NCBI GenBank assembly: GCA_020850535.1
Contig: JADZEM010000063.1
Coordinates: 1-64,000, forward strand
Length of the DNA: 64,000 bases
DNA from: Chloroflexota bacterium
GTDB taxonomy: Bacteria > Chloroflexota > UBA6077 > JACCZL01
Direction: 5' to 3'
Below the pieces are notes generated by a model, which had not been told where the DNA came from, did not search any database, and worked only from the letters and a program-made list of their open reading frames with translations. This document shows positions 3,241 to 23,321 of this stretch, one piece after another; the first letter of the stretch is position 1; each line of letters starts with the position of its first letter. The position numbers were made by a program, and so were the translations under genes.

Positions 3241-3380
3241 TGTCATCCTGAGCGCAGCGAAGGACCTCACCCGCTGACCGTCAAGTTCGCGTCATCTGCT
3301 GACCGTCAACTCTCGCAACATCCGTTAGCGCTCAACGCTCACGTCAGCGGGTGAGATCCTTCGCTGCGCTCAGGATGACA
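3241..3380. repeat. Long inverted repeat with TGTCATCCTGAGCGCAGCGA arms
   Basis: Arm 1 (3241-3279) and arm 2 (3342-3380) are reverse complements over about 38 bp with a single mismatch, flanking a 62-bp loop that contains two copies of CTGACCGTCAA. It resembles a dispersed, non-coding, MITE/REP-like element; no target-site duplication was identified. With the arrays at 3124-3172 and 3414-3469 it accounts for most of the 367-bp gap between the dehydrogenase and the permease genes. Confidence 0.75.
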
Positions 3381-3413
3381 ATTGCGATTTGCATGCTTTC
3401 ACCCCAACATTCG

Positions 3414-3469
3414 CACGATCCACGATCCACGATCCACGATCCACGATCCCCGATCCACGATCCACGAAA
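3414..3469. repeat. 7-bp tandem repeat (CACGATC)8
   Basis: Eight 7-bp units of CACGATC, one with a C substitution and the last degenerate, end 8 bp before the stop codon of the permease gene on the minus strand. The unit differs by one base from the CACGACC array at 1-100, suggesting a common origin or slippage-driven spread. Confidence 0.85.
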
Positions 3470-3477
3470 CCCAGCAC

Positions 3478-4374
3478 CTATTCCGCGCGGGTGCGGGGGT
3501 CCAGCACGTCGCGGATGCCGTCGCCCAGCAGGTTGAACGCCAGCACGGCGGTTACGATGGCGAGGCCGGGGAAGATGCTCATCCAGGGCGCCGTCTCCAA
3601 GAACGTCCGCCCTTCCTGCAGCATCGAGCCCCAGGAGGGCGTCGGCGGCTGCGGCCCGAGGCCCAGGAAGCTGAGGTACGCCTCCAGCAGGATCGCGTGC
3701 GAGAAGGTGATCGTCGCCTGGACCGTCAGCGGCGACAGCACGTTCGGGAAGACGTGGAAGAGCAGCACGTGCCAGGAGGGCGCGCCGAGCACCCGCGCGG
3801 CCTCGACGTACTCCTTGCCCCGCTCCACCAGCGTCGGGCCGCGAATCACCCGCCCGAAGAGCGGCGCGTACACCACCGAGATCGCGATAACCGCGTTGGT
3901 CAGGCCCGGGCCGAGCATCGCGGCGATGCCGATGGCCAGCAGCAAGGCCGGAAAACTGAACAGCACGTCGAAGATGCGGCCGATGATCGTGTCGGTCCAG
4001 CCGCCGTAGAAACCGCTGACCAGACCGAGCGTTACACCTAACAGCGCCGAAATCGTGACGCTGCACACCGCGACCAGCAGCGTCGTCTGGCTACCCCAGA
4101 TGACCCGGCTGAAGACGTCACGGCCGAAGCGGTCCGTGCCGAAGAGGTAGAGACCGGATGGAGGCTGCGTGGCTGCTCGGACGTTGTTGGCGATGGGGCT
4201 GTACGGCGCGATCAGGCCAGCCAGCGCTGCCGTCACGATTAGGCCGACGACCATGATCGCGCCAGCCAGCACCAGCCGATTGCGCGTCATGATGCGAATC
4301 GTCCGCTGGAGCCGGGTGCGCTGCATGCGGCCGACCGGCCCGGCCACTGCTGCCGCGGAGGCCGTCGTCACCAT
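3478..4374 (-). CDS. ABC transporter permease, DppC/OppC family
   Basis: Inner-membrane permease of 298 aa for a peptide/nickel-type importer. An N-terminal cytoplasmic stretch leads to a first membrane span (LVLAGAIMVVGLIVTAALAG). The family signature GTDRFGRDVFSRV follows, then the binding-protein-dependent EAA loop (AARVLGAPSWHVLLFHVFPN) that contacts the ATPase. The ATG at 4374 has a GAGGTGG ribosome-binding site a few bases upstream. It is the second gene of a two-gene unit with the DppB-type permease ending at 4430. No ATP-binding subunit gene lies in the window, so the ATPases must be encoded elsewhere or shared. Confidence 0.9.
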   Translation of the reverse strand: MVTTASAAAVAGPVGRMQRTRLQRTIRIMTRNRLVLAGAIMVVGLIVTAALAGLIAPYSPIANNVRAATQPPSGLYLFGTDRFGRDVFSRVIWGSQTTLLVAVCSVTISALLGVTLGLVSGFYGGWTDTIIGRIFDVLFSFPALLLAIGIAAMLGPGLTNAVIAISVVYAPLFGRVIRGPTLVERGKEYVEAARVLGAPSWHVLLFHVFPNVLSPLTVQATITFSHAILLEAYLSFLGLGPQPPTPSWGSMLQEGRTFLETAPWMSIFPGLAIVTAVLAFNLLGDGIRDVLDPRTRAE

Positions 4375-4429
4375 GCTGCCACCTCGGGGGGGTGAACGCT
4401 GGTGGGGTGAAACGTGTGATCGGCGGCCA

Positions 4430-5389
4430 TCAGTCGTACCGAATGCGCGGGTCGAGATAGGCGTAGCACAGATCCACCAGCAGGTTGCTCAGCATGAACA
4501 GCGCGGCGATGAACAGGATCGCGCCCTGGATCAGCGGGTAGTCCCGCTGGTAGACCGCGTTCAGCATCAGCCGGCCGACGCCCGGCAGGGTGAAGACCTC
4601 TTCCGTGACCACCGCGCCGCCGAGCAGGTAGCCGACCTGCACGCCGATCACGGTGATGATCGGGATCAGCGAGTTCTTGAAGGCGTGGCGGCTCACCACG
4701 ATCCGCTCGGCCAGCCCCTTGGCGCGGGCCGTCCGTACGTAGTCCTGCCGCATGATCTCCAGCAGCGAGGAGCGGGTCATCCGCATCACCTGGGCCGCCA
4801 CGACCGTGCCCAGCACGATGCACGGCAGGATCATCTGCTTGAGATTGGCGACCGGGTCTTTGAGCGGCGAGGCGTACTCGACGGGCGGCACCCAGTTGAA
4901 CCACATCGAGAACGCCAGGATCAGCATCGCCGCCTGCCAGAAGATCGGGATCGAGAGGCTGAACAGGCTGGCGATCCGCGCGACATGGTCGAGCGGGGTG
5001 TTCTCCTTGACCGCCGACAGCACGCCCAGCGGGATGCCGACGATCAGCGCGATCAGCAGCGCCCCGAGCGTCAGTTGCAGCGTCACGCTGAGACCGTTCC
5101 CGAGCAGCTGCGAGACCGGCAGGCCCAGCCGCCAGCTCTTGCCGAGGTCGCCCTGCACGATGCCGCCAGCCCAGTGGGCATATTGGATGTGCAGCGGCTG
5201 ATCCAGCCCGAAGAAGGCGCGCATCTGCGCCTTCGTCTCCTCGGTGGCGCGGGCCTCCGCCCCGAGCATCTGCTCCACGATGCTGCCAGGGATCATCCGC
5301 ACCATCAAAAAGACCAGAATCGTCACGCCAACCAGGGTCGGAACGAGGGACAAGGACCGTTTCAGGAGATATGTTCTCACGGCCGGCAT
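4430..5389 (-). CDS. ABC transporter permease, DppB/OppB family
   Basis: Inner-membrane permease of 319 aa, partner of the DppC-type permease. The start MPAVRTYLLKRSLSLVPTL gives the typical N-terminus, in which the positive YLLKR segment precedes the first membrane span (VGVTILVFLMVRMIPG). An in-frame upstream start would add 15 atypical residues and was not used. The DppB hallmarks are present: LGKSWRLGLPVSQLLGN, then the EAA loop around TARAKGLAERIVVSRHAFKN, and the C-terminal DLCYAYLDPRIRYD. It is divergent from the phytase-like gene at 5635. Confidence 0.9.
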   Translation of the reverse strand: MPAVRTYLLKRSLSLVPTLVGVTILVFLMVRMIPGSIVEQMLGAEARATEETKAQMRAFFGLDQPLHIQYAHWAGGIVQGDLGKSWRLGLPVSQLLGNGLSVTLQLTLGALLIALIVGIPLGVLSAVKENTPLDHVARIASLFSLSIPIFWQAAMLILAFSMWFNWVPPVEYASPLKDPVANLKQMILPCIVLGTVVAAQVMRMTRSSLLEIMRQDYVRTARAKGLAERIVVSRHAFKNSLIPIITVIGVQVGYLLGGAVVTEEVFTLPGVGRLMLNAVYQRDYPLIQGAILFIAALFMLSNLLVDLCYAYLDPRIRYD

Positions 5390-5467
5390 GGTACTACACG
5401 TCCAGCCGGCCAGGGCCAGGGACGCCAGCAACAACCATCAGAAGACCGGGTCTGGACATGAATGACG

Positions 5468-10360: not shown

Positions 10361-11377
10361 CTATTCCAGGGTTGGCGTGCAGCCAGGAGGCGTCTCCGGG
10401 TCGGCGTCGGACAGGAGGCGGTCGATGGCGACCGTGGCGGCGGCCAGCCGCTCGTCGGGGCGGCCATGCACCTCGACGAACGGTCGGTGCGAGCGGGTCA
10501 GCTCCTCGCGGAAACGGCTCTGGAACCAGGCGCGGCGGTGCGGCTGATCGCGGGTGCCATCATCCTCCCAGGCGATCTCCTCGCCCGTCAGGATGTGGAG
10601 GACGTGGCGGTGGCGCTCGGCGATCTGCCGGACGGCCGGCGCATCCTGGCCCATGTACAGCTCGTGCCAGAGCCAGGTGGTGAAGGCGTCGGTGTCGCAG
10701 ATCAGGACACGGTTGGCATGTCGGGCGAGCATGTCCTCCATCGCCTGCTGGGTCCGCGCGATGTGCACGAAGTCCTGGGTGCTGTAGGCCGTGGCGGCCG
10801 ACGGCAGCAGGCCATCCCAGTAGGGCCGGCCGTACTCGGGAACCCAGGCCGTCTGGTAGTGGGCGGCCAATGCTCGAGCCAGGGTCGTCTTGCCGGTCGA
10901 TTCCGCCCCGACCAGCACCACGCGCGGCACGAAATAGGCCCGTACCGGCGGCTCCAGGTAGTCGAGATGGGCCAGCGGCCGAGCCAGAATCTGCGAGGCC
11001 GAGATCGGGACGGTCGTACGGTCGGGGTCCAGGCAGACGTGATCGCAGCCGAGGTAGCCCGCGTAGGCCTCGCCGTAGCTCTCGGAGGTGAAGACCACGT
11101 CCGGCGCGCCGGGCAGCCACTCCCGCGTCAGCCGCGCCCAGAGCGCCGAGTCGTGCGGGTCGTGGTCGGCGGAGTCCCAGATGCGGACGTCCACCGTCGG
11201 GAACAGCTCGCGGAGCCAGTCGGCCCGCAGCTCGACCGGGATCGTGTCGGAGGCGTGGCGGCAGACCACCAGCGTCAGCCGCTCGACCTGCTCCAGGGCG
11301 GTGCGAATCAGGTAGCTGTGGCCCGTGTGCGGCGGGCGCAGCTTCCCGACGATCAGGCCGTGCTGCCAGCGCGTCAT
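10361..11377 (-). CDS. nadR: Bifunctional NMN adenylyltransferase/ribosylnicotinamide kinase (NadR-like)
   Basis: Cytoplasmic NAD-salvage enzyme of 338 aa. The N-terminal nucleotidyltransferase domain has GKLRPPHTGH (HxGH at residues 17-20) and the SISAS-like segment PISASQIL, and joins NMN to ATP to make NAD. The C-terminal P-loop kinase domain (Walker A GAESTGKT, residues 157-164) phosphorylates nicotinamide riboside. Unlike enterobacterial NadR there is no N-terminal DNA-binding domain, so it is an enzyme only. I use the ATG at 11377, which overlaps the pnuC stop as ATGA (translational coupling); an upstream in-frame start would run into pnuC. With pnuC it forms a riboside uptake-and-trapping pair. 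Confidence 0.88.
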   Translation of the reverse strand: MTRWQHGLIVGKLRPPHTGHSYLIRTALEQVERLTLVVCRHASDTIPVELRADWLRELFPTVDVRIWDSADHDPHDSALWARLTREWLPGAPDVVFTSESYGEAYAGYLGCDHVCLDPDRTTVPISASQILARPLAHLDYLEPPVRAYFVPRVVLVGAESTGKTTLARALAAHYQTAWVPEYGRPYWDGLLPSAATAYSTQDFVHIARTQQAMEDMLARHANRVLICDTDAFTTWLWHELYMGQDAPAVRQIAERHRHVLHILTGEEIAWEDDGTRDQPHRRAWFQSRFREELTRSHRPFVEVHGRPDERLAAATVAIDRLLSDADPETPPGCTPTLE

Positions 11378-12099
11378 GCGCCAGCCTCCCGGACGGCCAG
11401 GGCCGGGATGACAGTCGTACGCGCGGACTGCTGCCGCCGCATGATGGCGCGCCACTCCACCAGCCCGCGCAGGCACACCAGCAGGAACACGGCGTAGAGG
11501 ACGGCGGTCAGCGGCAACTCACGGGAGACGTACATCGGCACGTAGATGATGTCCGCGGCGATCCAGGCGTACCAGTTCTCGACGAAGCGACGCATCAGCA
11601 GCCACTGCGCCACCACGCTGATGCCGGTGGTGATGGCGTCCAGGGCCGGCGCGGCGCTGTCGAGCAGGATGCCGCCGTGCCACATCAGGGCGGTCAGGGC
11701 CGCGCCGCCAGCCAGGACGCCGACCGCTTCGAGCGGGCCGACGTGGCCGATCGGCTTCTCGGTGCGGCCGGCCCCGCCGTAGGTCCAGGCCCACCAGCCC
11801 CACAGGCCCGAGAGCACGTAGAAGACGTTCAGGCTCATATCGAAGTAGAGGCGCGCGCCGAAGAACAGGACGACGAAGAGGGCCGAGTTGGCGACGCCAA
11901 TCGGCCAGTTCCAGACGTTGTTGCGGGCCGCCAGCCAGACCGTCCAGGCGCCCGTGACGAAGGCCAGCAGCTCGGTGGCGTCGAGCGGGACGGGCAGCAG
12001 GCCGAGCCAGTGCCCGGCGACGACGCCGACCGAGAGCAGGGCGGCCAGGACGTAGAGCGCGACCGTGAGTTGAGGTGAGGGCGAGCGAGACACAGGCAT
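11374..12099 (-). CDS. pnuC: Nicotinamide riboside transporter PnuC
   Basis: Integral membrane protein of about 241 aa, PnuC family, a facilitator for nicotinamide riboside that is trapped by NadR phosphorylation. The family core is clear: an aromatic/Asn-rich stretch (NNVWNWPIGVANS), then FDMSLNVFYVLSGLWGWWAW and later ENWYAWIAADIIYVPMYV. An extra hydrophobic span (LTVALYVLAALLSVG) precedes the core. I prefer the ATG at 12099; an in-frame GTG at 12144 would add a hydrophobic 15-residue tail and leave only about 11 nt of leader from the predicted promoter. The stop overlaps the nadR start by 4 bp. Confidence 0.88.
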   Translation of the reverse strand: MPVSRSPSPQLTVALYVLAALLSVGVVAGHWLGLLPVPLDATELLAFVTGAWTVWLAARNNVWNWPIGVANSALFVVLFFGARLYFDMSLNVFYVLSGLWGWWAWTYGGAGRTEKPIGHVGPLEAVGVLAGGAALTALMWHGGILLDSAAPALDAITTGISVVAQWLLMRRFVENWYAWIAADIIYVPMYVSRELPLTAVLYAVFLLVCLRGLVEWRAIMRRQQSARTTVIPALAVREAGA

Positions 12100-12161
12100 G
12101 AGCAAGGCCCCCGACGCGAGCAGCAGAGGCGCCGCACCCACCACTCGCCGAATTCAACTCT

Positions 12162-12633: not shown

Positions 12634-13578
12634 ATGCCTCGCCCCGAGTACGTCCCGATCCAGTGCAAATCGGCCCTCAACCGCGTCCAGGGGATGCCGT
12701 TCAAATGGTCGTTGAACCCGTACGCGGGGTGCGTGCACGCCTGTGTGTACTGCTATGCCCGCTCGCACTATCAACTGGCGGGGCACGGTGATGCCGGGCG
12801 GGAGTTCGAGACCCGGATCCTGGTCAAGTCCAACATCGCGGAGGTGCTGCGGCGCGAGCTGCGGCGGCCGTCGTGGTCGTTCGAGCTGGTGTCGCTCGGG
12901 ACGGTGACGGACTGCTACCAGCCGGCCGAAGGGCGCTTCCGAGTCACGCGGGCCTGCCTGGAGACCCTGGCCGACTGTGCCAACCCGCTCGGCATGGTGA
13001 CGAAGTCGCCGCTGGTCCTCCGCGACCTGGACATCCTGGCCCCGCTGGCCCGGCAGGCGAAGGTCAGGATCTTCTTCACCATCACGACCGTCGATCTGGA
13101 CCTCTGGCGCACCATCGAGCCGGGCACGGCAAACCCGTTCAAGCGGCTCGCGGTGATGCAGCGGCTCAACGAGGCAGGCGTGCCGGCGGGGGTGCTGCTC
13201 GCGCCGATCCTGCCCGGGCTGACGGACTCGTCGGCCTCGCTGGAGGCGGTCGCGCAGGCGGCCGCCGAGCACCGAGCGGCCTTTCTCGGCACCAGCACCT
13301 TGCGGCTTGCGCCCGTCGTCAAGGAACAGTACCTCGGGTTTGTGGACCGCGAGCACCCGGATCTGCTGCCTCGCTACGAGCGCGCCTACCCGGGCCGCGA
13401 GGCGCCCCAGGCGTACCAGCAGGCGCTGGATGCGCGCGTCGAACGGATCCGCGAGCGCTACGGCTTCGCGGAGCGCTCGATGCGGAAGGCTGGCCTCAGC
13501 TCGGCGGCCGAGCCGCTGCCTGCGGACCCGCTCCCGCGGCGCGTCGGGCCGCAACTGCTGCTCCCGATGATCTCGTAG
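12634..13578 (+). CDS. Radical SAM protein, Rv2578c/SplB-like family
   Basis: Iron-sulfur S-adenosylmethionine radical enzyme of 314 aa, related to the spore photoproduct lyase-like COG1533 proteins. The 4Fe-4S-binding cluster CVHACVYC (C-x3-C-x2-C) follows the conserved N-terminal block KSALNRVQGMPFKWSLNPYA. The reaction is unknown for this subfamily. The ATG at 12634 is kept because the conserved block begins directly after it, although GGAGG lies only 1 bp upstream. The last ~97 codons are duplicated at 21844-22134 with six differences, all silent, so this copy appears to be the functional one. Confidence 0.85.
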   Translation: MPRPEYVPIQCKSALNRVQGMPFKWSLNPYAGCVHACVYCYARSHYQLAGHGDAGREFETRILVKSNIAEVLRRELRRPSWSFELVSLGTVTDCYQPAEGRFRVTRACLETLADCANPLGMVTKSPLVLRDLDILAPLARQAKVRIFFTITTVDLDLWRTIEPGTANPFKRLAVMQRLNEAGVPAGVLLAPILPGLTDSSASLEAVAQAAAEHRAAFLGTSTLRLAPVVKEQYLGFVDREHPDLLPRYERAYPGREAPQAYQQALDARVERIRERYGFAERSMRKAGLSSAAEPLPADPLPRRVGPQLLLPMIS

Positions 13579-13697
13579 CCGGCCGGCACGTCGGGGTTCT
13601 ATCTGCTGCTGGAGGAGTGCGCACGGGCCTGGCGGGCTCGCGCGCGACCGCTGTCCCAGACATCTGGGTTCGCAAGCCGGTGTGGGCGCTCGCCAGC
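13288..13697. repeat. 410-bp direct repeat, copy A (left end of catabolic island)
   Basis: This segment covers the 3' end of the radical SAM gene and the last 33 codons of the convergent hydroxyacid dehydrogenase gene. It recurs in direct orientation at 21844-22253 (offset 8556 bp) with about seven substitutions. Recombination between the copies would remove 8556 bp. Confidence 0.9.
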
Positions 13698-14615
13698 CAG
13701 GAAACGGTCGATGTTGTCGAGCGTCAACGGGGTCTTGTACTGCTCGCTCTCGAAAGAACCACCGGCCACATGGGGCGTCGCGACGACGTTGTCGAGTGCG
13801 AGCAACGGATTGTCCGGTGGAGTCGGCTCGACCTCGAAGGTGTCCAGTCCGGCCGCCAGGATGCGACGCTCGGCGAGCGCTCGGTAGAGGGCCGACTCGT
13901 CGATGACTCGCCCACGGGCGGCATTGATCAGGATGGCCGTTGGCTTCATCAGGCTCAGCTCACGCTCGCCGATCATACGGTCGGTGTCCCTGGTGTGCGG
14001 CACGCACAGCACCACGATGTCTGACTCTCGGAGCAGGGTGTCAAGGGACACGGAGCGGATGCCCGCCAGAATCATGCCGTCCGGTCGGGAGGTCCGCTGG
14101 TAGGAGATGGAGTGGGCGCCGAAGCCTGCCACGCGTTTCGCGACGTGCAGGCCGATGTGCCCCAGCCCGATGATACCAACCGTCTTGCCGGCCAGTTCAT
14201 ACGGTGGTCGTGGCGGATCGACACGGTCCCAGATGCCCATCCGCATGTTGATGATGTCGCGCGCCGCATTTCGCAGGCAGAGTAACGTGAGCATCAGAAT
14301 GTGGTCGGCGACCGACGACGCATTCATCCCGACATTCAGCGTCAGCAGGATGCCGTGATCGCTGAGCGCCTCGACATCAAAATGGTCCGCTCCGGAGCCA
14401 CCTTTGACCAGCAACTGGAGGTTCGGAAGCTGCTCGATCATCTCGCGGCTGAGCACGTACGGGCCAGACCGACCCGACAGGAGGATCTCGCAATCCCGAA
14501 TCTGGTCGATCAAGACATCAGCCGCGGTCGTCTCGGTCCGCACGAACACGATATCGTGGCCGACGAAGCGTCCGTCTACCGCCTCTCGATAGCGCTCGTC
14601 AATCGCGAGACGCAT
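13599..14615 (-). CDS. D-isomer-specific 2-hydroxyacid dehydrogenase
   Basis: NAD(P)-dependent oxidoreductase of 338 aa (phosphoglycerate dehydrogenase/glyoxylate-hydroxypyruvate reductase family). The nucleotide-binding motif GIIGLGHIG is central. The catalytic Arg (INAARGRVID), Glu (FEVEPTPPDNPL) and His (ATPHVAGGSFES) are all present. The ATG at 14615 has a GGAGGGGAGG ribosome-binding site; upstream in-frame codons would overlap the transporter gene and are rejected. It lies 85 bp after the binding-protein gene and is probably co-transcribed from the Crp-type promoter at 16433-16475. The C-terminal 33 codons lie inside direct repeat copy A. In context it probably reduces a 2-ketoacid formed from the imported sugar acid. 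Confidence 0.88.
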   Translation of the reverse strand: MRLAIDERYREAVDGRFVGHDIVFVRTETTAADVLIDQIRDCEILLSGRSGPYVLSREMIEQLPNLQLLVKGGSGADHFDVEALSDHGILLTLNVGMNASSVADHILMLTLLCLRNAARDIINMRMGIWDRVDPPRPPYELAGKTVGIIGLGHIGLHVAKRVAGFGAHSISYQRTSRPDGMILAGIRSVSLDTLLRESDIVVLCVPHTRDTDRMIGERELSLMKPTAILINAARGRVIDESALYRALAERRILAAGLDTFEVEPTPPDNPLLALDNVVATPHVAGGSFESEQYKTPLTLDNIDRFLAGERPHRLANPDVWDSGRARARQARAHSSSSR

Positions 14616-14700
14616 GGCACCCTCCCCTCCTGCACACACGGGGCAGTCCCGCTCGCGCCAGGCAAGCGGGACCACGACGTGAGCGTCGGCGACGCTACAG

Positions 14701-16392
14701 TCAGTCCTGAAGCTGCATCTCGTTGAACTTCCACAGGTTGTCGGTTCGCGGCGTCCAGACGAGCTTCGCCGACGCACCGTGAATGTAGTCCAGCCCGAAG
14801 AGCGGCAGCACCCAGTAGTTGTCGTAGGCGGTCTTCCACAGCTCTTCGTACAACTTCCGCCGCTCGTCGCCACTGGCAGCAGATGCCTGGGCCATCTTCT
14901 TGGTGAATGCCTCGTCGCAGAAGTGGGAGAAGCGACCTTCACAGCCGTAGTAGGCGTCCATCACGCGCGATGAATCGAACGTCGGGTTGGACGCTGCCGT
15001 CATGAACGTGTCGGATCGCTTCTCGCCCGGCTTGACTGCGAACAGCGTCTCCCGCCACTGGCCGGCTTCCATGATCCGAGGCGTCATCTTGAGGCCGGTG
15101 CTCGCACTCACCGCGTTCGCCACCGCCTCGCCCAGTTCCGAGATGCGGGCGAAGTTCGCCTCACGGATCACCAGTTCGAGTGCCGTGCCACTTGCCCCGG
15201 CCTCCTGCACCAGTTGCTTCGCCTTTGCAGCATCAACCGGATACGGCTTGAGGGTCGGGCTGGAGCCGAACGACTGGCCGCGCACCATCTGACCATTCGC
15301 GCTGGTGGAGAAACCCGGGTAGAACGCCTCCATCAGCATGTTGGTGTCAATGGCGTACGCAATGGCCTGGCGAACACGGATGTCCTTCAGCGCCGGGTGC
15401 TCGGTGTTGAGGCGGATACCGACCATCTCGGTGGTCTTCTCGACCACCGACTTCGGCATCTGCTTCGCCATCTCTGTCGGGATCGAGAATGCCAGTTGCG
15501 CCTCGCCAGCCTGGACCATTGAAGCGCGGACGCTAGCTTCCTTGCGGGGAATGATCTTGACCTCGGCGATAGTCGGCTTTGGCGTGCCCCAGTACTCGGG
15601 GTTGGCCTTGAGCGTGATGTAGCTGCCACGCTGCCAGTCACTCAGGGAGTACGGGCCGGTGCCGACGGCCGTCACCGACATCTTGTCTTCCGACGTCTCC
15701 TTGAGCCACTTCGCCGGCGCGATCTTGAACTTGATGAGCTTATTCGGCAGGATCGGGTCCGGAGCAGTGGTCGTGAGATCGACGGTGTAGTCATCCACCT
15801 TCGTGGCCGGAAAGCCGAGCGTCGAATAGTCGCCGTTGCAGCGGTTCGTACGCGTCGACGGGTTCAGCTCATGGTCGACGGTCTCCACCACCGAGTCGGC
15901 ATTCATCGGCTCACCGTTCTGGAACTTGATCCCCTGCCGAAGTTTGAAGCGCCAGGTCGTGGGGCTGGTCTGTTGCCAGCTCTCAGCGAGTAGCCCGACG
16001 ATCTTGCCGTCGTTGTCGATACTGGTCAACGATTCGTAGATGTTGCGGACGGTGAAGTCGGCAAGGAGGGAGCAGCCCATCTTCGGCATCAAGCCGTTCT
16101 CAGGCTCGCCTTCGACGGCGATGACCAGTTGGCCCCTCGGGGCGGCTGCTGGCTTGGCCGCTTCGGCTGGCTTCGCGGCGGCGGGAGCCACCGTGGGCTT
16201 CGCCGCCTCGGCGGGTTTCGCGGCCTCGGCAGACTTCGCCACCTCGGTCGGCCTGGCCGGCGAGACCGCCTCGGCGGGTTTCGCGGGCGCCGTTGTTGCG
16301 GCGGGTGGTGTGGGCTGAGCGCAGCCGGTCACCATTGTCGCGACCAGCGCCGCAAGAACAACGCGTCGAGCGCGCGGCGAGAACAGTCGCAT
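14701..16392 (-). CDS. ABC transporter substrate-binding lipoprotein (family 5)
   Basis: Solute-binding lipoprotein of 563 aa, DppA/OppA fold. The start at 16392 (GGGAGAGG ribosome-binding site) gives a classical Sec/lipobox leader MRLFSPRARRVVLAALVATM with lipobox VTGC, Cys24. A tether built of repeated A-K-P-A-E-A units (about residues 25-95) precedes the folded domain at RGQLVIAVEGEPENG. Longer in-frame readings add unconvincing residues. The permeases at 16542-18423 are its likely partners. A Crp-type site with a matching -10 box sits 68 bp upstream of the start. In this locus the ligand is more likely a sugar acid or oligosaccharide than a peptide (inference from neighbours). Confidence 0.9.
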   Translation of the reverse strand: MRLFSPRARRVVLAALVATMVTGCAQPTPPAATTAPAKPAEAVSPARPTEVAKSAEAAKPAEAAKPTVAPAAAKPAEAAKPAAAPRGQLVIAVEGEPENGLMPKMGCSLLADFTVRNIYESLTSIDNDGKIVGLLAESWQQTSPTTWRFKLRQGIKFQNGEPMNADSVVETVDHELNPSTRTNRCNGDYSTLGFPATKVDDYTVDLTTTAPDPILPNKLIKFKIAPAKWLKETSEDKMSVTAVGTGPYSLSDWQRGSYITLKANPEYWGTPKPTIAEVKIIPRKEASVRASMVQAGEAQLAFSIPTEMAKQMPKSVVEKTTEMVGIRLNTEHPALKDIRVRQAIAYAIDTNMLMEAFYPGFSTSANGQMVRGQSFGSSPTLKPYPVDAAKAKQLVQEAGASGTALELVIREANFARISELGEAVANAVSASTGLKMTPRIMEAGQWRETLFAVKPGEKRSDTFMTAASNPTFDSSRVMDAYYGCEGRFSHFCDEAFTKKMAQASAASGDERRKLYEELWKTAYDNYWVLPLFGLDYIHGASAKLVWTPRTDNLWKFNEMQLQD

Positions 16393-16432
16393 CTTGCCTC
16401 TCCCTTGAAGCGAGGTTTCGGTTCCTGCCGTG

Positions 16433-16475
16433 AGCATAGGGGGGGTCGGGGACGATTTCTGTCGGCCGGCCGACA
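16433..16475 (-). promoter_or_regulatory. Crp-type promoter 1 (binding protein and dehydrogenase)
   Basis: The perfect palindrome TGTCG-GCCGGC-CGACA lies at 16460-16475. A -10 box TATGCT (minus strand 16438-16433) follows after 21 bp. With +1 at 16426 the site centre is at -41.5, the class II Crp activator position. No -35 box is present, as expected for an activator-dependent promoter. Confidence 0.65.
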
Positions 16476-16541
16476 ACTCTGACGAGGAGGTCTGCCGTGA
16501 GTTGACGGTTCCTGTCGGGGCTGGCGTGGCCAGCGCGGCGT

Positions 16542-17489
16542 TCAGACGTTCAGCCAGCGCCATCGCTGGACGGGATCGCTGACGGCACGCAGCCACGTCG
16601 AGAGCAGGTTCACCGAGAGCGTCGTGAGGAAGATGGCGAAGCCCGGAAAGCCGACGAGCCACCAGGCCGTCGTGATGTACTCACGGCCCTGAGAGAGCAT
16701 CAAGCCCCAGGACGATTCTGGCGGCTGGATGCCGACGCCCAGGAAGCTGAGGGCCGCTTCCGAGAGCATCGCGCGAGCAAACTCCAGCGTGCCCAGCACC
16801 AGGATCGGCGAGAGAAGGTTGGGCAGCATATGTCGCAGCATCAGCCGCCCGTCGCTCGCGCCGACGACCCGTGCCGCTTCGATGTACGGCGACTCTCGGA
16901 CCGACAGCGCCATCGCCCGCGTCACCCGGGCCATGACCATCCACCGCGTCAGGGCCAGGACGATGATCAGGTTCTGGAAGCCCGGCCCGGCCGTGTAGAG
17001 CACGATCAGCGCGAGCAGCAGCGACGGGAACCCCATCTGAATGTCGACGAGGCGCATCAGCAGATCGTCGACCTTCCCGCGATAGAAGCCGGCAACCAGC
17101 CCGACTGTGACGCCAATCAGACCTGAGCAGATCACCGTGGCCAGCCCGACGCTCAGCGACACCCGCGCGCCAACCAGCACGCGAGACAGCACGTCACGTC
17201 CCAGTTGATCGGTGCCGAGCAGGTGGAACGATCCATCCCGCGCAAAGCCGGGCGCCGAGTTACGCAGAAGCAGACTCTGGGCGTTGGGTGCAGGGAGGAC
17301 GCAGACGGACACCAGCAGGTCGGCGCTGGCGCACATGGCCAGGAGGACGATGAGAAAGACGGCTGCCAGGAGGCTGATCGGCTCACGGACGAGCGCGCGG
17401 AGCAACACGGACAGCCGAGCGGCCAGACTGGCGCCTTCGAGGCGCGGGGCTGAGGACGGCTCAGTCAGGATCTCGGCTGTCGGATTCAT
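16542..17489 (-). CDS. ABC transporter permease, DppC/OppC family
   Basis: Inner-membrane permease of 315 aa. A charged N-terminus leads to the span LLAAVFLIVLLAMCASADLL. GTDQLGRDVLSRVLVGARV is the family signature, and the EAA loop is AARVVGASDGRLMLRHMLPN. The ATG at 17489 has GGAGG 9 bp upstream and lies 16 bp after the stop of the DppB-type gene, so the two form one transcription unit. It partners the binding protein at 14701-16392, which has its own promoter. No ATPase subunit is encoded in the island. Confidence 0.9.
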   Translation of the reverse strand: MNPTAEILTEPSSAPRLEGASLAARLSVLLRALVREPISLLAAVFLIVLLAMCASADLLVSVCVLPAPNAQSLLLRNSAPGFARDGSFHLLGTDQLGRDVLSRVLVGARVSLSVGLATVICSGLIGVTVGLVAGFYRGKVDDLLMRLVDIQMGFPSLLLALIVLYTAGPGFQNLIIVLALTRWMVMARVTRAMALSVRESPYIEAARVVGASDGRLMLRHMLPNLLSPILVLGTLEFARAMLSEAALSFLGVGIQPPESSWGLMLSQGREYITTAWWLVGFPGFAIFLTTLSVNLLSTWLRAVSDPVQRWRWLNV

Positions 17490-17505
17490 CGTCGCGCAGC
17501 CTCCA

Positions 17506-18423
17506 TCACTTGTACCGAATGCGCGGGTCGAGGTAGGCGTACGTCAGGTCGACTGCCAGATTGATCGCCACGACCAGCGTGGCCACGATCAAGACGTCGG
17601 CCTGAATCAGCGGGAAGTCCCGACGCTCGATGGCGCTGATCGCCAGCAATCCGATCCCTGGCCAGCCGAAGATCACCTCGATCACGACGGACCCGTTGAC
17701 GAGGCCCGCGATCTCGTCGCCGGCGAGCGTGATGACCGGGATGGCCGCGTTGCGCAACACGTGACGATAGACGGTGATCCGCTCCGGCAGGCCCTTTGAG
17801 CGCGCCGTCACCACGTACGCCTTGCTCAATTCGTCCAGCATGCAGGACCGCACCACCTGGGCGATCCGGCCGATGTGGTTGACGGCCAGGGCCAGGACTG
17901 GCAGGACGAGATACTCCACGCCGCCGTAGCCAGACGTCTTGAACCATCCAAGCTGGACGGCAAACAGAATGATCAACATCAGCGCGAGCCAGAAAGTCGG
18001 CATCGAGACGCCGACGATGGCCAGCGTCGTGGTCAGCCGGTCGACGAACGAGCGCGGGCTAAACGCCGACATCGCGCCCATCGGCACCGCCACAACCAGC
18101 GAGAAGCCAATCACTGAGACGGCCAGGAGCAGCGTGGCCGGAATCCGCTCCAGCACCAGTTGTCGGGCTGGCACCCGCTGCCAGATCGAGAGACCAAAGT
18201 CGCCGCGCACGAGGTCTCCGGCGAAGCCCAGGAACTGCACGTACAGCGGGTTGTCCAGGCCAAGCTCAGCCCGCAGGCTCTGGTACTGCTCCTCGGTGGC
18301 CTCAATGGGGAGCATCAGTCGCGCGGGATCGCCGACGGTGCGCGTCACCACGAAGATGACGATTGCCAGCCCCAGCAGCACAAACACCGAGTGCACGAGG
18401 CGCCGAGCAATGTAGGCAGTCAT
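17506..18423 (-). CDS. ABC transporter permease, DppB/OppB family
   Basis: Inner-membrane permease of 305 aa with the standard N-terminus MTAYIARRLVHSVFVLLGL (basic stretch then first span) and the conserved C-terminus DLTYAYLDPRIRYK. The EAA loop is around ARSKGLPERITVYRHVLRN. The ATG at 18423 has AAGGAG upstream. It is the first gene of the permease pair and is preceded by the second Crp-type site (18508-18529). Confidence 0.9.
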   Translation of the reverse strand: MTAYIARRLVHSVFVLLGLAIVIFVVTRTVGDPARLMLPIEATEEQYQSLRAELGLDNPLYVQFLGFAGDLVRGDFGLSIWQRVPARQLVLERIPATLLLAVSVIGFSLVVAVPMGAMSAFSPRSFVDRLTTTLAIVGVSMPTFWLALMLIILFAVQLGWFKTSGYGGVEYLVLPVLALAVNHIGRIAQVVRSCMLDELSKAYVVTARSKGLPERITVYRHVLRNAAIPVITLAGDEIAGLVNGSVVIEVIFGWPGIGLLAISAIERRDFPLIQADVLIVATLVVAINLAVDLTYAYLDPRIRYK

Positions 18424-18482
18424 ACGGACGTAGTGGCTCCTTGACCACAGCCGAGGCTCGTCGTGGCCCCAGCGACCAGCCC

Positions 18483-18529
18483 AGCATACGGGTACCGGTC
18501 AGCGTCCGTTTGTCGTCGCGCCGACAAAC
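18483..18529 (-). promoter_or_regulatory. Crp-type promoter 2 (permease operon)
   Basis: TGTCG-TCGCGC-CGACA at 18511-18526 extends to an outer palindrome GTTTGTCG...CGACAAAC (18508-18529). A -10 box TATGCT (minus strand 18488-18483), identical to that of promoter 1, follows after 22 bp. The site centre is at about -42.5. Confidence 0.65.
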
Positions 18530-18604
18530 ACGCGGATACGTCGAATTAGCGCCTGCCGACCCGCTGGATGCCTCCTGGCGGCGCCGCCCCGGAGGCTCAG
18601 GCGA

Positions 18605-19309
18605 TCACGGGCGGAGCTCGGCGCACTCCTGCAAGCCGACCCACTCCTGAATGACGATGGCCCGTGACCTGAGGGCCAGGAATCCCTCAGATTCCAGACG
18701 GTCAAGCTCACTGGTAACCGTCTGCCTCGTCATGCCGCAGAGGCGGCTCAACTGCTCGTGCGTCACCCGAATGTCGATGGACGTTGCATGGTCCAGCGCC
18801 GCTCCGCTGCGCCGCGCCAGATAGACCAGCGACGCCGCCACCCGTCGCCGAGCCGAGGTCCCGATGAGGCTCGTCTTCATCGTCTGCTGCTCAATGCCCC
18901 GATGGAGCGCGCTGTTGAGCAGGGCCAGCGTGATCTCGGGCCGGTCGACGATGAGCGTGAACAGCACATCTCTTGGGACCACCCACAGCTCGATATCGTC
19001 GAGGGCGCGCATGCTTCGCGCCCGCTCGTGCCCGAGCAGGATCTCCGCGATGCCGAACACCTCGTGTGGATGACGGATCGAGTGTCCGATCTCGCGCCCA
19101 GACTCCGAGATGCTCAGCAGCTCGACACGGCCGGACTTGACGGCGTAGGCGGCCGTGGGCTGCTCGCCCTGAAGGAAGATAAACGCGTTGCGTCGATACG
19201 GGCGTAGCTGCCCAAATTCGGCGAAGCTCTCGTAGGCGACCTGTCGCCACACCTCGACGGGCCGGACAAGGCTGTCCCTCACCGGACGTAGCGCCCTCGT
19301 GGCGTTCAC
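18605..19309 (-). CDS. Crp/Fnr-family transcription regulator
   Basis: DNA-binding regulator of 234 aa: an N-terminal cyclic-nucleotide-binding-like beta-barrel (about residues 25-140), a dimerisation helix, and a C-terminal winged helix (about 165-225). The ligand pocket keeps an E-R-A-R-S element comparable to the phosphate-binding R-S of CRP, but no Cys cluster of the Fnr type. The recognition helix reads CGMTRQTVTSELDRLE: relative to E. coli CRP the Arg180 equivalent is kept, while Glu181 becomes Gln and Arg185 becomes Ser. Those residues read the inner base pairs of TGTGA, and the local sites are TGTCG. The start is GTG at 19309 with GGGAGGG at 6-bp spacing. It probably activates the three operons of the island. 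Confidence 0.85.
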   Translation of the reverse strand: MNATRALRPVRDSLVRPVEVWRQVAYESFAEFGQLRPYRRNAFIFLQGEQPTAAYAVKSGRVELLSISESGREIGHSIRHPHEVFGIAEILLGHERARSMRALDDIELWVVPRDVLFTLIVDRPEITLALLNSALHRGIEQQTMKTSLIGTSARRRVAASLVYLARRSGAALDHATSIDIRVTHEQLSRLCGMTRQTVTSELDRLESEGFLALRSRAIVIQEWVGLQECAELRP

Positions 19310-19351
19310 GCCGTCCCTCCCTGGTGCTGCGTCTCCTGTGCCACCGGCGTT

Positions 19352-19394
19352 TGTCGGCCGGCCGACAGAACGCCCCCCACAGCGGCCCTACGAT
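19352..19394 (+). promoter_or_regulatory. Crp-type promoter 3 (dehydratase operon)
   Basis: TGTCG-GCCGGC-CGACA at 19352-19367, identical in sequence to site 1, is followed after exactly 21 bp by TACGAT (19389-19394). With +1 at 19401 the site centre is at -41.5. It faces the gene starting at 19507. No -10 box was found at the mirrored distance toward the divergent regulator gene. Confidence 0.6.
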
Positions 19395-19506
19395 TATCGT
19401 CCACGGCGGACGTTATTCCCAGGAGCGTGCCGGCGAGCCAGTGCCGGCCAACGAGGGCTCCCACGCTGCTTGGCAACCGACCGCAGCGACGCGGAGGAGG
19501 ATAGTC

Positions 19507-20649
19507 ATGAAAGTTGACCGCATCGAGACACTCACCTTCTGGGGTGAGTGGAAGAACTGGGTCTTCGTCAAAGTTTCGACTGACGATGGCCTGTACGGCT
19601 GGGGCGAGGCCTCGCTCGCGGGCGCCGTCAAGGCGGTCGAGAGCGCCGTCCACGAACTGGGAGCGGTCCTGATCGGGGAGGATCCCGGCGGCGTCGAGCG
19701 TCACTGGCTCCGGATGTACCACGCCTGGCGCTGGCGGGGCGGTGCGATCCAGACGACGGCCCAGGCCGCGCTCGACATCGCCCTCTGGGATCTTGAAGGC
19801 AAGCGCCTCGGCGTGCCGTCATACCGGCTGCTGGGTGGGCCATACCGGGATCGCATCCGTGCATACGCCAGCCACTGGCTCATCGGCGCGGATACCCCTG
19901 AGAAGGTGCGCGAGCAGGTCCGCGAGGTCAAGCGGCGCGGCTTCGATGCCTTCAAGTGGAGTCCGTTCGATCAGCGGAGCCTCCGCGAGAATGAGAACGC
20001 CGCCATCGAGAAGGCGCGGCAGTTGATGGAGGTCGCGCGCGATGAAGCTGGTCCGGAGATGGATATCTTTGTCGAGTGCGGCGAGAAACTCTCACTGCGA
20101 ACGGCCCCAATCGCGGCCCAGGCGTTTCTGCCATACCGTCCTGGCTGGTTTGAGGAGCCAATCCCCTGCGAGAACGCGAAGGCGATGGTCGAACTCCAGC
20201 ACACGCTTCCCGTCCCCATCGCCACCGGCGAGCGTCTCGTCACGCGGTGGGAATACCGCGAGTTACTCGAAGGGCAGGGTTGCCGGATCATTCAGCCGGA
20301 CCTGACCCACTGCTCGGGCATCACCGAGGTCAAGCGCATTTGCTCCATGGCGGACACCTACTACATCAGCGTGGCGCCCCATAACTCGGCGGGTCCCATC
20401 GGCACGCTCGCGGCTCTCAACCTGGCTGCCGCGATTCCGAACTTCTTCATCCTCGAACAGATGGAGGAGGAGCGGAGCATGCGGGATGCCATCTGTACTG
20501 TGCCGCTGAAGTTCGAGAACGGGTCGTTCGAGCTGCCGACGGCACCGGGCCTAGGCACCGACCTCAAGCTCGACGTGCTGCTCGAATCCGAGGCTCGGGC
20601 GGCGCGAGCCACGCCGTTGCGTGGCGGCACCGAGCGAATCTGGCGCTAA
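19507..20649 (+). CDS. Enolase-superfamily sugar-acid dehydratase (mandelate racemase/muconate lactonizing family)
   Basis: Mg-dependent enzyme of 380 aa that would abstract the proton alpha to a carboxylate, typically dehydrating an aldonic or aldaric acid. The ATG at 19507 has GGAGGAGG upstream and gives MKVDRIETLTF. The N-terminal capping domain precedes the barrel. Metal ligands are Glu in DIFVECGEK, Glu in WFEEPIPCEN and Glu in IATGERLV. The general acid/base side has Asp in QPDLTHCSG and His in SVAPHNSAG. At the strand that carries KxK or the D-x-H of D-galactonate dehydratase this protein has FKWSPFD and VECGEK, so the exact reaction is unclear. It is first in an operon with the malate/lactate-type dehydrogenase. 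Confidence 0.85.
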   Translation: MKVDRIETLTFWGEWKNWVFVKVSTDDGLYGWGEASLAGAVKAVESAVHELGAVLIGEDPGGVERHWLRMYHAWRWRGGAIQTTAQAALDIALWDLEGKRLGVPSYRLLGGPYRDRIRAYASHWLIGADTPEKVREQVREVKRRGFDAFKWSPFDQRSLRENENAAIEKARQLMEVARDEAGPEMDIFVECGEKLSLRTAPIAAQAFLPYRPGWFEEPIPCENAKAMVELQHTLPVPIATGERLVTRWEYRELLEGQGCRIIQPDLTHCSGITEVKRICSMADTYYISVAPHNSAGPIGTLAALNLAAAIPNFFILEQMEEERSMRDAICTVPLKFENGSFELPTAPGLGTDLKLDVLLESEARAARATPLRGGTERIWR

Positions 20650-20680
20650 CCCACCGTCTACAGAGCCACACAGGAGGAGG

Positions 20681-21763
20681 ATGCCCGTGCCCACGTTCAC
20701 TGCCGAGCGACTCGGCGCATTTATCGAGACGGTCCTGACCCGTGCTGGGCTGCAGGCCGACGAGGCTCGGCACTGCGCCGAGGCGGCAGTGTTCGCAAAC
20801 CTGCGTGGCACCGAGACGCATGGAATCGTCTACATCGTCCCCCGCATGCTCAAGAGCCTTCAGGAGGGGAAGACAACGCCAGGTGCTCGCCACGTGGTGG
20901 TCCGCGAGAGCGGCGGGTCAGCCTTGCTCAAGGCAAACGGACAGGCCGGGCCGATGCTCGGCTACGAGGCGATGCAGGTCGCGGTGAAGAAGGCACGCGA
21001 GCAGGGCGTCGGAGCGGTTGTCACGATCAACGGTGGCCCGCTCGGCATGCTCGGCTACTTCGCGGATCTGGCTGCTCGGCAGGGACTGATCGGCATGGTG
21101 GCGGCCAACACGTCGCCGAATGTGGCCCCCTACGGGAGCAGCACGCCGGTATTCGGCACGAACCCGTTTGCCTACGCTGCGCCTGCGGCATCCGCACCGA
21201 CGCTCCTCCTAGACATCGCCACGAGCGTGGCGGCGTCCGGCAAACTGGCCAGCGCTCGTCGTCGACAGGAGCAGTTGCCCGAGGGCTGGATCGTCGACGC
21301 CGATGGCGCCTGGATCACAGACCCGATGCGGTCGGGCGATGGGGCGATGCTGGCATTTGGTGGGCACAAAGGGTCAGGCATTGCGCTGTTGGTACATGTG
21401 CTGACTGGCATGCTGGGGGGCACAACGGTCGGCGGCGAGGTTACCCACGAGAACTCTGATCCCGATGTTCGGGGGCAGTCGGTCTTCTACCTCGCCATCG
21501 ACCCGGAGCATTTCGCGTCGCGTGAGGTGTTCGAGCGCCTGGCCGACCGCCAGATCGAATACATCCAGGCAGCACGGCCACTGCCAGGCTTCGAAGAGGT
21601 GCTGTCCCCCGGGATGCGCGGCGCCCGCACGGCGGCAGGCCGGTCAAGCCAGGGCATCCCGGTACCAGAGCCGGATTGGGCGGCCGTTCTGAAGGCGGTG
21701 CAGGCGGCAGGACTGCCCGTAGACGAGATAGTTGATGAGGTCACTGTGGCTCCTGCATCGTAG
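20681..21763 (+). CDS. Malate/L-lactate dehydrogenase family (Ldh_2) oxidoreductase
   Basis: NAD(P)-dependent dehydrogenase of about 360 aa, of the Ldh_2 family that acts on malate, L-lactate, ureidoglycolate or L-gulonate-type 2-hydroxyacids and is structurally unrelated to classical LDH. Signatures are GTETHGIVYIVPRML (catalytic His), APYGSSTPVFGTNP, and LAFGGHKGSGIALLVHVL near the C-terminus. It follows the dehydratase by 31 bp. The ATG at 20681 touches AGGAGGAGG; the GTG at 20687 has better spacing and may be the true start. In context it oxidises or reduces an intermediate of the sugar-acid pathway. Confidence 0.87.
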   Translation: MPVPTFTAERLGAFIETVLTRAGLQADEARHCAEAAVFANLRGTETHGIVYIVPRMLKSLQEGKTTPGARHVVVRESGGSALLKANGQAGPMLGYEAMQVAVKKAREQGVGAVVTINGGPLGMLGYFADLAARQGLIGMVAANTSPNVAPYGSSTPVFGTNPFAYAAPAASAPTLLLDIATSVAASGKLASARRRQEQLPEGWIVDADGAWITDPMRSGDGAMLAFGGHKGSGIALLVHVLTGMLGGTTVGGEVTHENSDPDVRGQSVFYLAIDPEHFASREVFERLADRQIEYIQAARPLPGFEEVLSPGMRGARTAAGRSSQGIPVPEPDWAAVLKAVQAAGLPVDEIVDEVTVAPAS

Positions 21764-21811
21764 GCGGTCGGGTGTCAGAATCTCGGCTCTATTGAACTCA
21801 GGGCGCCCCCA

Positions 21812-22134
21812 CTGGCCGACTGTGCCAACCCGCTCGGCACGGCGGCACCAGCACCTTGCGGCTTGCGCCCGTCGTCAAGGAGCAGTACCTCGGGTTCGTG
21901 GACCGCGAGCACCCGGATCTGCTGCCTCGCTACGAGCGCGCCTACCCGGGCCGCGAGGCGCCCCAGGCGTACCAGCAGGCGCTGGATGCACGCGTCGAGC
22001 GGATCCGCGAGCGCTACGGCTTCGCGGAGCGCTCGATGCGGAAGGCTGGCCTCAGCTCGGCGGCCGAGCCGCTGCCTGCGGATCCGCTCCCGCGGCGCGT
22101 CGGGCCGCAACTGCTGCTTCCGATGATCTCGTAG
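21812..22134 (+). pseudogene. Truncated second copy of the radical SAM gene
   Basis: 21812-21839 matches 12967-12994 of the radical SAM gene, then the match jumps to 13288 and runs to the stop codon (21844-22134), so about 290 bp are missing internally and the 5' half is absent. The iron-sulfur motif is lost and it cannot be functional. The six base differences in the coding part are all silent, showing that this sequence diverged while still under selection. Confidence 0.85.
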
Positions 22135-22253
22135 CCGGCCGGCACGTCGGGGTTCTATCTGCTGCTGGAGGAGTGCGCACGGGCCTGGCAGGCTCGCGCG
22201 CGACCGCTGTCCCAGACATCTGGGTTCGCAAGCCGGTGTGGGCGCTCGCCAGC
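21844..22253. repeat. 410-bp direct repeat, copy B (right end of catabolic island)
   Basis: Direct repeat of 13288-13697. It includes 3' radical SAM sequence, the 20-bp intergenic spacer, and a fragment (22155-22253) of the 3' end of the hydroxyacid dehydrogenase gene. It stops 9 bp short of the stop codon of the SGNH hydrolase gene. With 21764-21811, in which I recognise nothing, it fills the 499-bp gap. Confidence 0.9.
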
Positions 22254-22262
22254 GCCGTCAGG

Positions 22263-23321
22263 TCAGCGACCGGCGCCAAGCCCGGCGATGTCCAGCATCT
22301 CCTGCTCGGAAAACGGCTCGATGCACACACCGAAGTGCTCACGCAGTGGGCGAACAACCAGTTCATTCGCCATCATGCTGCTGGCGATCGTCCCAGGATG
22401 GCCGGCGCCATCCTGAAGGCGGAAGTGCCGGGGATCGTTGCCCGACGTTAGTGCGTCAACGGCAACGCCTCCGACCAGCAGCTGGTACGTGCCGTCAGCC
22501 TGCTGAAGCAACGACTGCCCAAAGCGATTCATGTCCACCAGCGGTACCGTCCGGTCCGCGGCCAGGCCGGCGAGACGGCTATTCACGCGGTCGATTGCCT
22601 GGGTGACAAGACGTCGCTGGCTCGCAACTGGGTGGGACGCAATCACCTCGGGACTTTGCCCCATATCTGGGATGCTGGTCACCAGTACATGGATGTCGCC
22701 TGCGGCCAGCACCGTATCCAGCGCGACGGTGAAGTTCTCGACGATGCGGTCAAGCCTGGCATCCAACGCCGCGCCGCTCAGCGTTCCATGGTAAACCCGA
22801 GCGTAGCCACCGCTCCAGAGCTGGAAATCGTTCACGCCGATCTGGACGATCACGTACTGAACGTGTCCGGCGGCAATCTGTTGGGCGAGTCCGGTGTGCT
22901 GTCCGCCGCGGATCATATCGTCCGTCGTGGCGCCAGAGCGCGACCAGTTGTATGCGTACCCCGTCCGTCGAGGTTCACCCCAGACGCCCCACGGCCCGAA
23001 GTTCAGGCCCCGTCGTTGCACAAGCTGCTCAACCCAGTTCAGCGTGGTCGAGGCGAAGGGGCCGCCGCGCGCGTCGTCAGCACGGTACTCGTCCGAGTTG
23101 CTGTCGCCGAGCACGCCGAACCCGACATCCGGCCCGACCGGTCGGCAAGCAGCCGACGCCGCTCGCAGGGCGGTGGGTCGGACGGATGCAGTGTCTGCCC
23201 CCGCCGCGAGGTGTGCGCGGCCGGGGATGGGCAGGGGTATGCTCCCCCACTGGCTCCCGAGCAACAGCATCGTCGCTCCAACCGCGAGAAACAGCATGGG
23301 AAGCACCCTACCCAATCGCAT
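22263..23321 (-). CDS. Exported SGNH/GDSL-family hydrolase
   Basis: Predicted secreted or membrane-tethered esterase/lipase-like protein of 352 aa. A signal-anchor (VLPMLFLAVGATMLLLGS) is followed by block I with the nucleophile Ser (GVLGDSNSDEY), block III (VIVQIGVNDF), and a C-terminal block V around QDGAGHPG, where the spacing between Asp and His is one residue longer than usual. The ATG at 23321 overlaps the end of the upstream hydrolase gene by 14 bp, so it is the last gene of the NRPS transcription unit. It might trim or transfer an acyl group on the product outside the cytoplasm; this is inference. Confidence 0.82.
   Translation of the reverse strand: MRLGRVLPMLFLAVGATMLLLGSQWGSIPLPIPGRAHLAAGADTASVRPTALRAASAACRPVGPDVGFGVLGDSNSDEYRADDARGGPFASTTLNWVEQLVQRRGLNFGPWGVWGEPRRTGYAYNWSRSGATTDDMIRGGQHTGLAQQIAAGHVQYVIVQIGVNDFQLWSGGYARVYHGTLSGAALDARLDRIVENFTVALDTVLAAGDIHVLVTSIPDMGQSPEVIASHPVASQRRLVTQAIDRVNSRLAGLAADRTVPLVDMNRFGQSLLQQADGTYQLLVGGVAVDALTSGNDPRHFRLQDGAGHPGTIASSMMANELVVRPLREHFGVCIEPFSEQEMLDIAGLGAGR

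Follow-up and report, generated by a model that had tools for sequence, protein, structure and literature searches.

A radical SAM-dehydrogenase junction fragment beside a catabolic block in a Chloroflexota bacterium: a possible recombination scar between accessory blocks

Introduction

How does a catabolic gene block come to lie between two nearly identical pieces of DNA, when one of these pieces is part of a gene of the block itself? This question is raised by the first 64,000 nucleotides of contig JADZEM010000063.1 (assembly GCA_020850535.1, Chloroflexota bacterium), hereafter the window, in which a direct repeat, copies A and B, flanks a block of genes next to a radical SAM gene (radSAM). 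An initial annotation read the locus as an excisable catabolic island, with Campbell-type integration of a circle as a likely origin. Our analysis leads elsewhere: with about even confidence, we read copy B as a recombination scar between accessory blocks, left by an import from a sibling strain, and not as an attachment site.

A broken gene junction at the right border

Both a repeat finder and blastn recovered copies A (13288-13697) and B (21844-22253) as an ungapped direct repeat with an offset of 8556, confirming the coordinates first described, as well as the count of about seven substitutions, six of them silent in radSAM. The paired segment is 411 bp long (13287-13697 and 21843-22253), with 7 mismatches, 98% identity, a blastn E = 0.0 and a longest exact run of 92 bp, which is far above chance level. 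Only these two copies exist in the assembly (7,653,396 bases, 227 contigs). The features at the borders, with GC3 standing for the GC content at third codon positions, are as follows.

12634 to 13578, plus strand: intact radSAM, 314 aa; nearest NCBIfam models are the Rv2578c and PA0069 families, below cut-offs; GC3 0.914, genome-typical
12967 to 12997, plus strand: radSAM piece matching the first piece of copy B (21812-21842), by sequence alignment
12998 to 13286, plus strand: 289 bp of radSAM without counterpart in copy B, with CTCGGCA near the ends
13287 to 13697, plus strand: repeat copy A, comprising the radSAM 3' end, a short intergenic stretch and the last 99 bp of the dehydrogenase open reading frame (ORF)
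13599 to 14681, minus strand: D-2-hydroxyacid dehydrogenase (Pfam), its last 32 codons and stop within the repeat; start codon provisional
21812 to 22253, plus strand: repeat copy B, a 5'-truncated, internally deleted radSAM-dehydrogenase junction fragment; no function expected
22263 to 23321, minus strand: GDSL/SGNH hydrolase, with the stop codon 9 bp to the right of copy B; first gene of a lower-GC3 region resembling non-ribosomal peptide synthetase/polyketide synthase (NRPS/PKS) clusters

The match at 21844-22253 stands, but the left boundary first assigned to copy B does not, as the copy reaches left to 21812 across a 289-bp deletion. Positions 21812-21842 equal radSAM 12967-12997 with one mismatch (T12995C, Met to Thr at codon 121, at the seam), and are fused without a gap to 21843, the equivalent of 13287. 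Copy B is therefore made of 12967-12997 plus 13287-13697 of A, with order and strand kept and non-homologous flanks, and it derives from a stretch that corresponds to 731 bp or more of copy A. Gone are the 289 bp inside radSAM (12998-13286) and the first third of the gene. The 7-bp sequence CTCGGCA occurs close to either end of the deleted segment, once at 12988-12994 and again at 13285-13291. A partial copy in the same orientation, with non-homologous edges, is what a duplication or an import followed by deletion would leave behind.

The last 99 bp of the repeat are minus-strand coding sequence, namely the dehydrogenase's 32 C-terminal codons plus its stop. Among 11 homologues inspected, the alignment reaches into this repeat-encoded C-terminus in ten, and an asparagine-proline motif within it is common to nine. 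Judged by these alignments, the C-terminus inside the repeat is native to the enzyme, and so the parental junction would be radSAM>-<dehydrogenase, with copy B a broken piece of such a junction. An "empty" chromosome, in which radSAM is followed directly by the SGNH gene, need never have existed; because the repeat holds the C-terminus of the island's own dehydrogenase, such a chromosome would itself carry a dehydrogenase stub.

Silent divergence and composition

All 7 differences within the 411-bp segment are transitions. Six of them (13326, 13341, 13434, 13443, 13527 and 13563) fall on third codon positions of radSAM and are silent, and the seventh (13634), beyond the radSAM stop, changes R to C in the dehydrogenase tail. 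In the radSAM part of the repeat (291 bases) 35% of random transitions are expected to be silent, while six of six were observed (P ~0.002), giving a divergence of ~8% per silent site. If the R-to-C change and T12995C are added, six of eight are silent (P ~0.026). Because the radSAM differences in the repeat are silent only, they suggest that A and B accumulated them in two separate lineages, each with a functional radSAM, before B broke. The separately evolving source that the initial annotation had deduced from the silent divergence is thus likewise suggested by our counts, less strongly so at six of eight. GC-ending codons at the six silent sites are split evenly, three in A and three in B, and it looks as though both lineages drifted. 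Attempts to polarise these sites with radSAM relatives, which are at most 69% identical in protein, failed.

Composition places copy B inside, and not at the edge of, an atypical region. Median GC3 is 0.906 for the 9 ORFs to the left of A, 0.81 for the 7 of the block and 0.77 for the 12 to the right of B, against a genome reference of 0.90 (114 ORFs from ten stretches); the ORFs were picked by script without homology, which makes the set approximate. Both the block (P 0.002, Mann-Whitney) and the right side (P 6e-6) differ from the genome sample, while block and right side differ from each other at P 0.056. As expected of horizontally acquired DNA, the block is unlike its genome (0.81 vs 0.90). 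Compared with its flanks, it stands apart from the left one but resembles the right one. The composition step sits at repeat A, and since GC3 is low from A through the right of B, copy B marks a seam where two accessory blocks meet. The region to the right contains giant NRPS/PKS-like ORFs, named by eye from their translations.

Origin of copy B

Import from a sibling strain, with resolution by illegitimate recombination, seems to us more likely than a duplication with subsequent deletion. The original order would have been radSAM>-<dehydrogenase-transporter-regulator-dehydratase-Ldh_2. A sibling lineage, belonging to the same species or to one very close to it, may then have contributed a second, slightly diverged radSAM-dehydrogenase junction, an origin to which the silent-only differences point. 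Recombination, either illegitimate or assisted by homology, may have attached this junction on the downstream side of the Ldh_2 gene. During the joining or soon after, copy B would have lost its 5' end, 289 internal bp, and everything past dehydrogenase codon 329, as counted from the C-terminal side of the minus-strand gene copy in the repeat, leaving a scar that would now divide the catabolic block from the NRPS/PKS-like block. We infer this order of events; the anatomy of the copies, their differences, the native dehydrogenase end, the composition shift and the lack of an integrase among the block genes were observed. Some points weigh against this account. The counts are small, and the silent excess becomes weak once the two further differences of B are included. 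A duplication within the genome followed by allele replacement would look identical. Finally, the assembly gave no sign of a second strain, with no additional copy of either the repeat or the block elsewhere in it.

A tandem duplication of ~12967-21811 within the genome, with most of the second unit deleted afterwards, would need no foreign DNA. One joint (21811/21812) and two deletions, one of 289 bp within radSAM and one that extends from the dehydrogenase body up to the SGNH gene, explain the order, the orientation and both edges of copy B. A duplication of the convergent gene pair followed by deletion had already been named as an alternative, and it does fit the anatomy better than a Campbell circle. 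Nevertheless, we regard it as unlikely, as a copy B without radSAM function should gather mostly non-silent changes, contrary to the six silent ones out of six. In addition, no decayed second unit lies right of B: outside itself, the block has just two blastn matches on the contig, and these fall on a paralogous permease operon of the left arm. An improbable explanation is an assembly or library chimera of two strain haplotypes at 21811/21812. The assembly is fragmented and bin-like (227 contigs, 4.58% contamination), exact repeats are found at the ends of several contigs, and the sequences to the left and right of B could represent different haplotypes. However, the joints lack the overlap that a k-mer assembler needs, with the 31-bp first piece abutting 13287 without overlap, the longest exact run between A and B is 92 bp, and neither 12 kb of another contig nor the block itself showed further near-identical redundancy.

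A mobile island, either a Campbell-integrated circle or an integrase-less island still able to excise, appears quite improbable, although several features speak for it. Direct repeats of 411 bp and 98% identity bracket the block, its GC3 is below that of the left flank, and its genes make up a putative regulon of their own, whose operators are absent from the rest of the genome (see below). Excision would also restore an unchanged radSAM protein: as the initial annotation had predicted, recombination between A and B in silico would remove 8556 bp and yield an identical protein at all eight crossover points tried. What speaks against it is that a gene of the island itself extends into the repeat, copy B is truncated and internally deleted, no recombinase gene lies in the block, composition is no less atypical in the right flank than in the block, and no match turned up in the phage and plasmid records searched. 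After Campbell integration, the shared homology stands complete at either border, whereas B is without the 289 bp and the radSAM 5' part. A site-specific island encodes an integrase or recombinase and has its border repeats outside the cargo genes, whereas the block genes encode neither and copy A holds the 3' end of the cargo dehydrogenase. Of the excisable island, the repeats and the in silico excision outcome hold, while the Campbell-type circle fails on the dehydrogenase C-terminus within the repeat and on the truncated, internally deleted copy B with its non-homologous edges. Recombination between A and B could still delete 8556 bp, yet there is no sign of a mobility device. A transposon or phage origin was also rejected: by megablast the block matched none of 72,556 plasmid and 50,697 phage records, and no tRNA gene lies in the window.

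The locus resembles several known systems. Prophage e14 inserts in the 3' end of icd, which is replaced by a silent-variant copy. As in that case, an intact gene stands at one border and a displaced 3' fragment at the other, with mostly silent differences; here, in contrast, there is no integrase, and B carries an upstream radSAM piece together with the 3' end of an island gene.

Homology-aided illegitimate recombination is named in one study as a route for species-level variation (PMC2884548). In comparison with this homology-facilitated process and with small variable segments at the species level, our fragment is separated from its homologue by 8.1 kb, it has a second, internal deletion, and the event is reconstructed from one genome. 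The microcin H47 island of E. coli is integrase-less with long imperfect direct repeats at its flanks (PMC3191183, PMC5426353). The likeness is a block between such repeats without its own recombinase. The difference is that the 148 and 144 bp repeats of microcin H47 are attachment sites with shown excision and integration, whereas here the repeat is a gene-junction fragment and excision a prediction. In a limited literature search, no Chloroflexota counterpart was found among the papers listed.

The mechanism is ordinary and the anatomy moderately interesting. Copy B would offer a readable example, from an uncultured lineage, of accessory blocks being assembled with no transposase or integrase at work, as the fragment records the join. 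A bolder reading, in which the radSAM 3' end is a recurrent landing site where accessory blocks accrete, each seam carrying a radSAM junction fragment of the donor strain, seems highly improbable to us. If true, whole regulons with private operators would be gained or lost by recombination at a housekeeping gene, with no integrase involved.

The block as a putative private regulon

Besides the dehydrogenase, the block holds the following genes and putative operators.

14701 to 16395, minus strand: solute-binding protein (SBP), family 5 (SBP_bac_5; Pfam)
16459 to 16476, minus strand: putative operator TTGTCGGCCGGCCGACAG, centre ~72 bp upstream of the SBP start
16542 to 17489, minus strand: ABC permease, DppC/NikC type (Pfam/NCBIfam)
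17506 to 18423, minus strand: ABC permease, DppB/NikB type (Pfam/NCBIfam)
18510 to 18527, plus strand: putative operator TTGTCGTCGCGCCGACAA, centre ~95 bp upstream of the permease operon
18605 to 19309, minus strand: Crp/Fnr-type regulator (cNMP_binding and HTH_Crp_2; PF00027 and PF13545 over cut-offs)
19351 to 19368, plus strand: putative operator TTGTCGGCCGGCCGACAG, between the divergent regulator and dehydratase genes
19507 to 20649, plus strand: mandelate-racemase/enolase superfamily protein (Pfam), galactonate-dehydratase-like
20681 to 21763, plus strand: Ldh_2 family dehydrogenase of the malate/L-lactate/sulfolactate/ureidoglycolate type (Pfam)

All block genes are metabolic, transport or regulatory, and none encodes an integrase or recombinase. 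Their function is probably, by inference, the uptake and the dehydration/oxidation of a sugar acid. The dehydratase scores 302.1 against its nearest NCBIfam model, galactonate dehydratase NF010624, below the cut-off of 311, and is assigned to the superfamily only. The initial annotation had described a complete uptake-regulation-catabolism set; the regulator, the catabolic genes, an SBP and two permeases are indeed present, but the uptake part is incomplete, with no transport ATPase gene in the block. A second dppC-dppB-like permease pair lies at 3478-5434, near a family 5 SBP-like protein (210-2036), and is distantly related in DNA to the block permeases.

Crp-type operators are palindromic, with a TGT-N10-ACA geometry. 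The three 18-bp palindromes of the block are all covered by the pattern TTGTCGNCNNGCCGACA, which occurs three times in the 7.65 Mb genome, every time in the block, while its reversed control pattern does not occur at all. As TTGTCGNCNNGCCGACA was derived from the three sites themselves, the evidence is its absence elsewhere, and not the fit. The regulator combines a cNMP-binding fold with a Crp-type HTH, and the block thereby shares with Crp/Fnr-type local regulons both the domain architecture of the regulator and the operator geometry (TGTCG-N6-CGACA), and differs in that the operator sequence is confined to this one block of the genome. Taken together, the block is putatively one regulon under Crp-type operators upstream of its transcription units. 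Such a private regulon would be a clean, testable catabolic module carrying its own regulator and operators, and is the more useful part of the finding.

The locus in other genomes

No same-genus genome was present among the 40 relatives searched, and radSAM had a match in 24 other genomes, the closest named one in a Chloroflexota metagenome-assembled genome (68% identity over radSAM). Gene order at five order-level radSAM loci had nothing in common with the window, and neither the dehydrogenase nor the SGNH gene was found nearby, with >2 kb available downstream in only three of these loci and <1 kb in two; a relative with an empty site was likewise not found. Dehydratase orthologues of 54-66% identity occur in seven other genomes. 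At these seven loci (3 to 19.5 kb) no other block gene accompanies the dehydratase, save a weak dehydrogenase match in L059, and no operators were found near it; at one further point of note, locus L056, there is a second dehydratase-type match. Relatives of the dehydrogenase in 29 genomes of the class do not exceed 43% identity. Of 400 sampled genomes, one had a regulator match at E <= 1e-38, namely the window's own.

Surrounding regions

From 22263 to 64000, and on to the contig end, extends a long, mostly minus-strand NRPS/PKS-like cluster. It includes two hydrolases like the exosortase-associated pair, below cut-offs, as well as asparagine-synthase-like, flippase-like and glycosyltransferase-like genes, recognized by eye. 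Left of radSAM, adjoining NadR-like and PnuC genes (10361-12144) form a nicotinamide riboside salvage pair. A dispersed repeat family, composed of heptamer arrays (CCACGAT/CCACGAC) and flanking segments, was detected at 1-100 and 3241-3467 of the window and at ~4478-4944 of L161. It occupies at least ~40 places on ~30 contigs (40 of 1206 candidates were scored), and several contigs, this one included, start or end in it.

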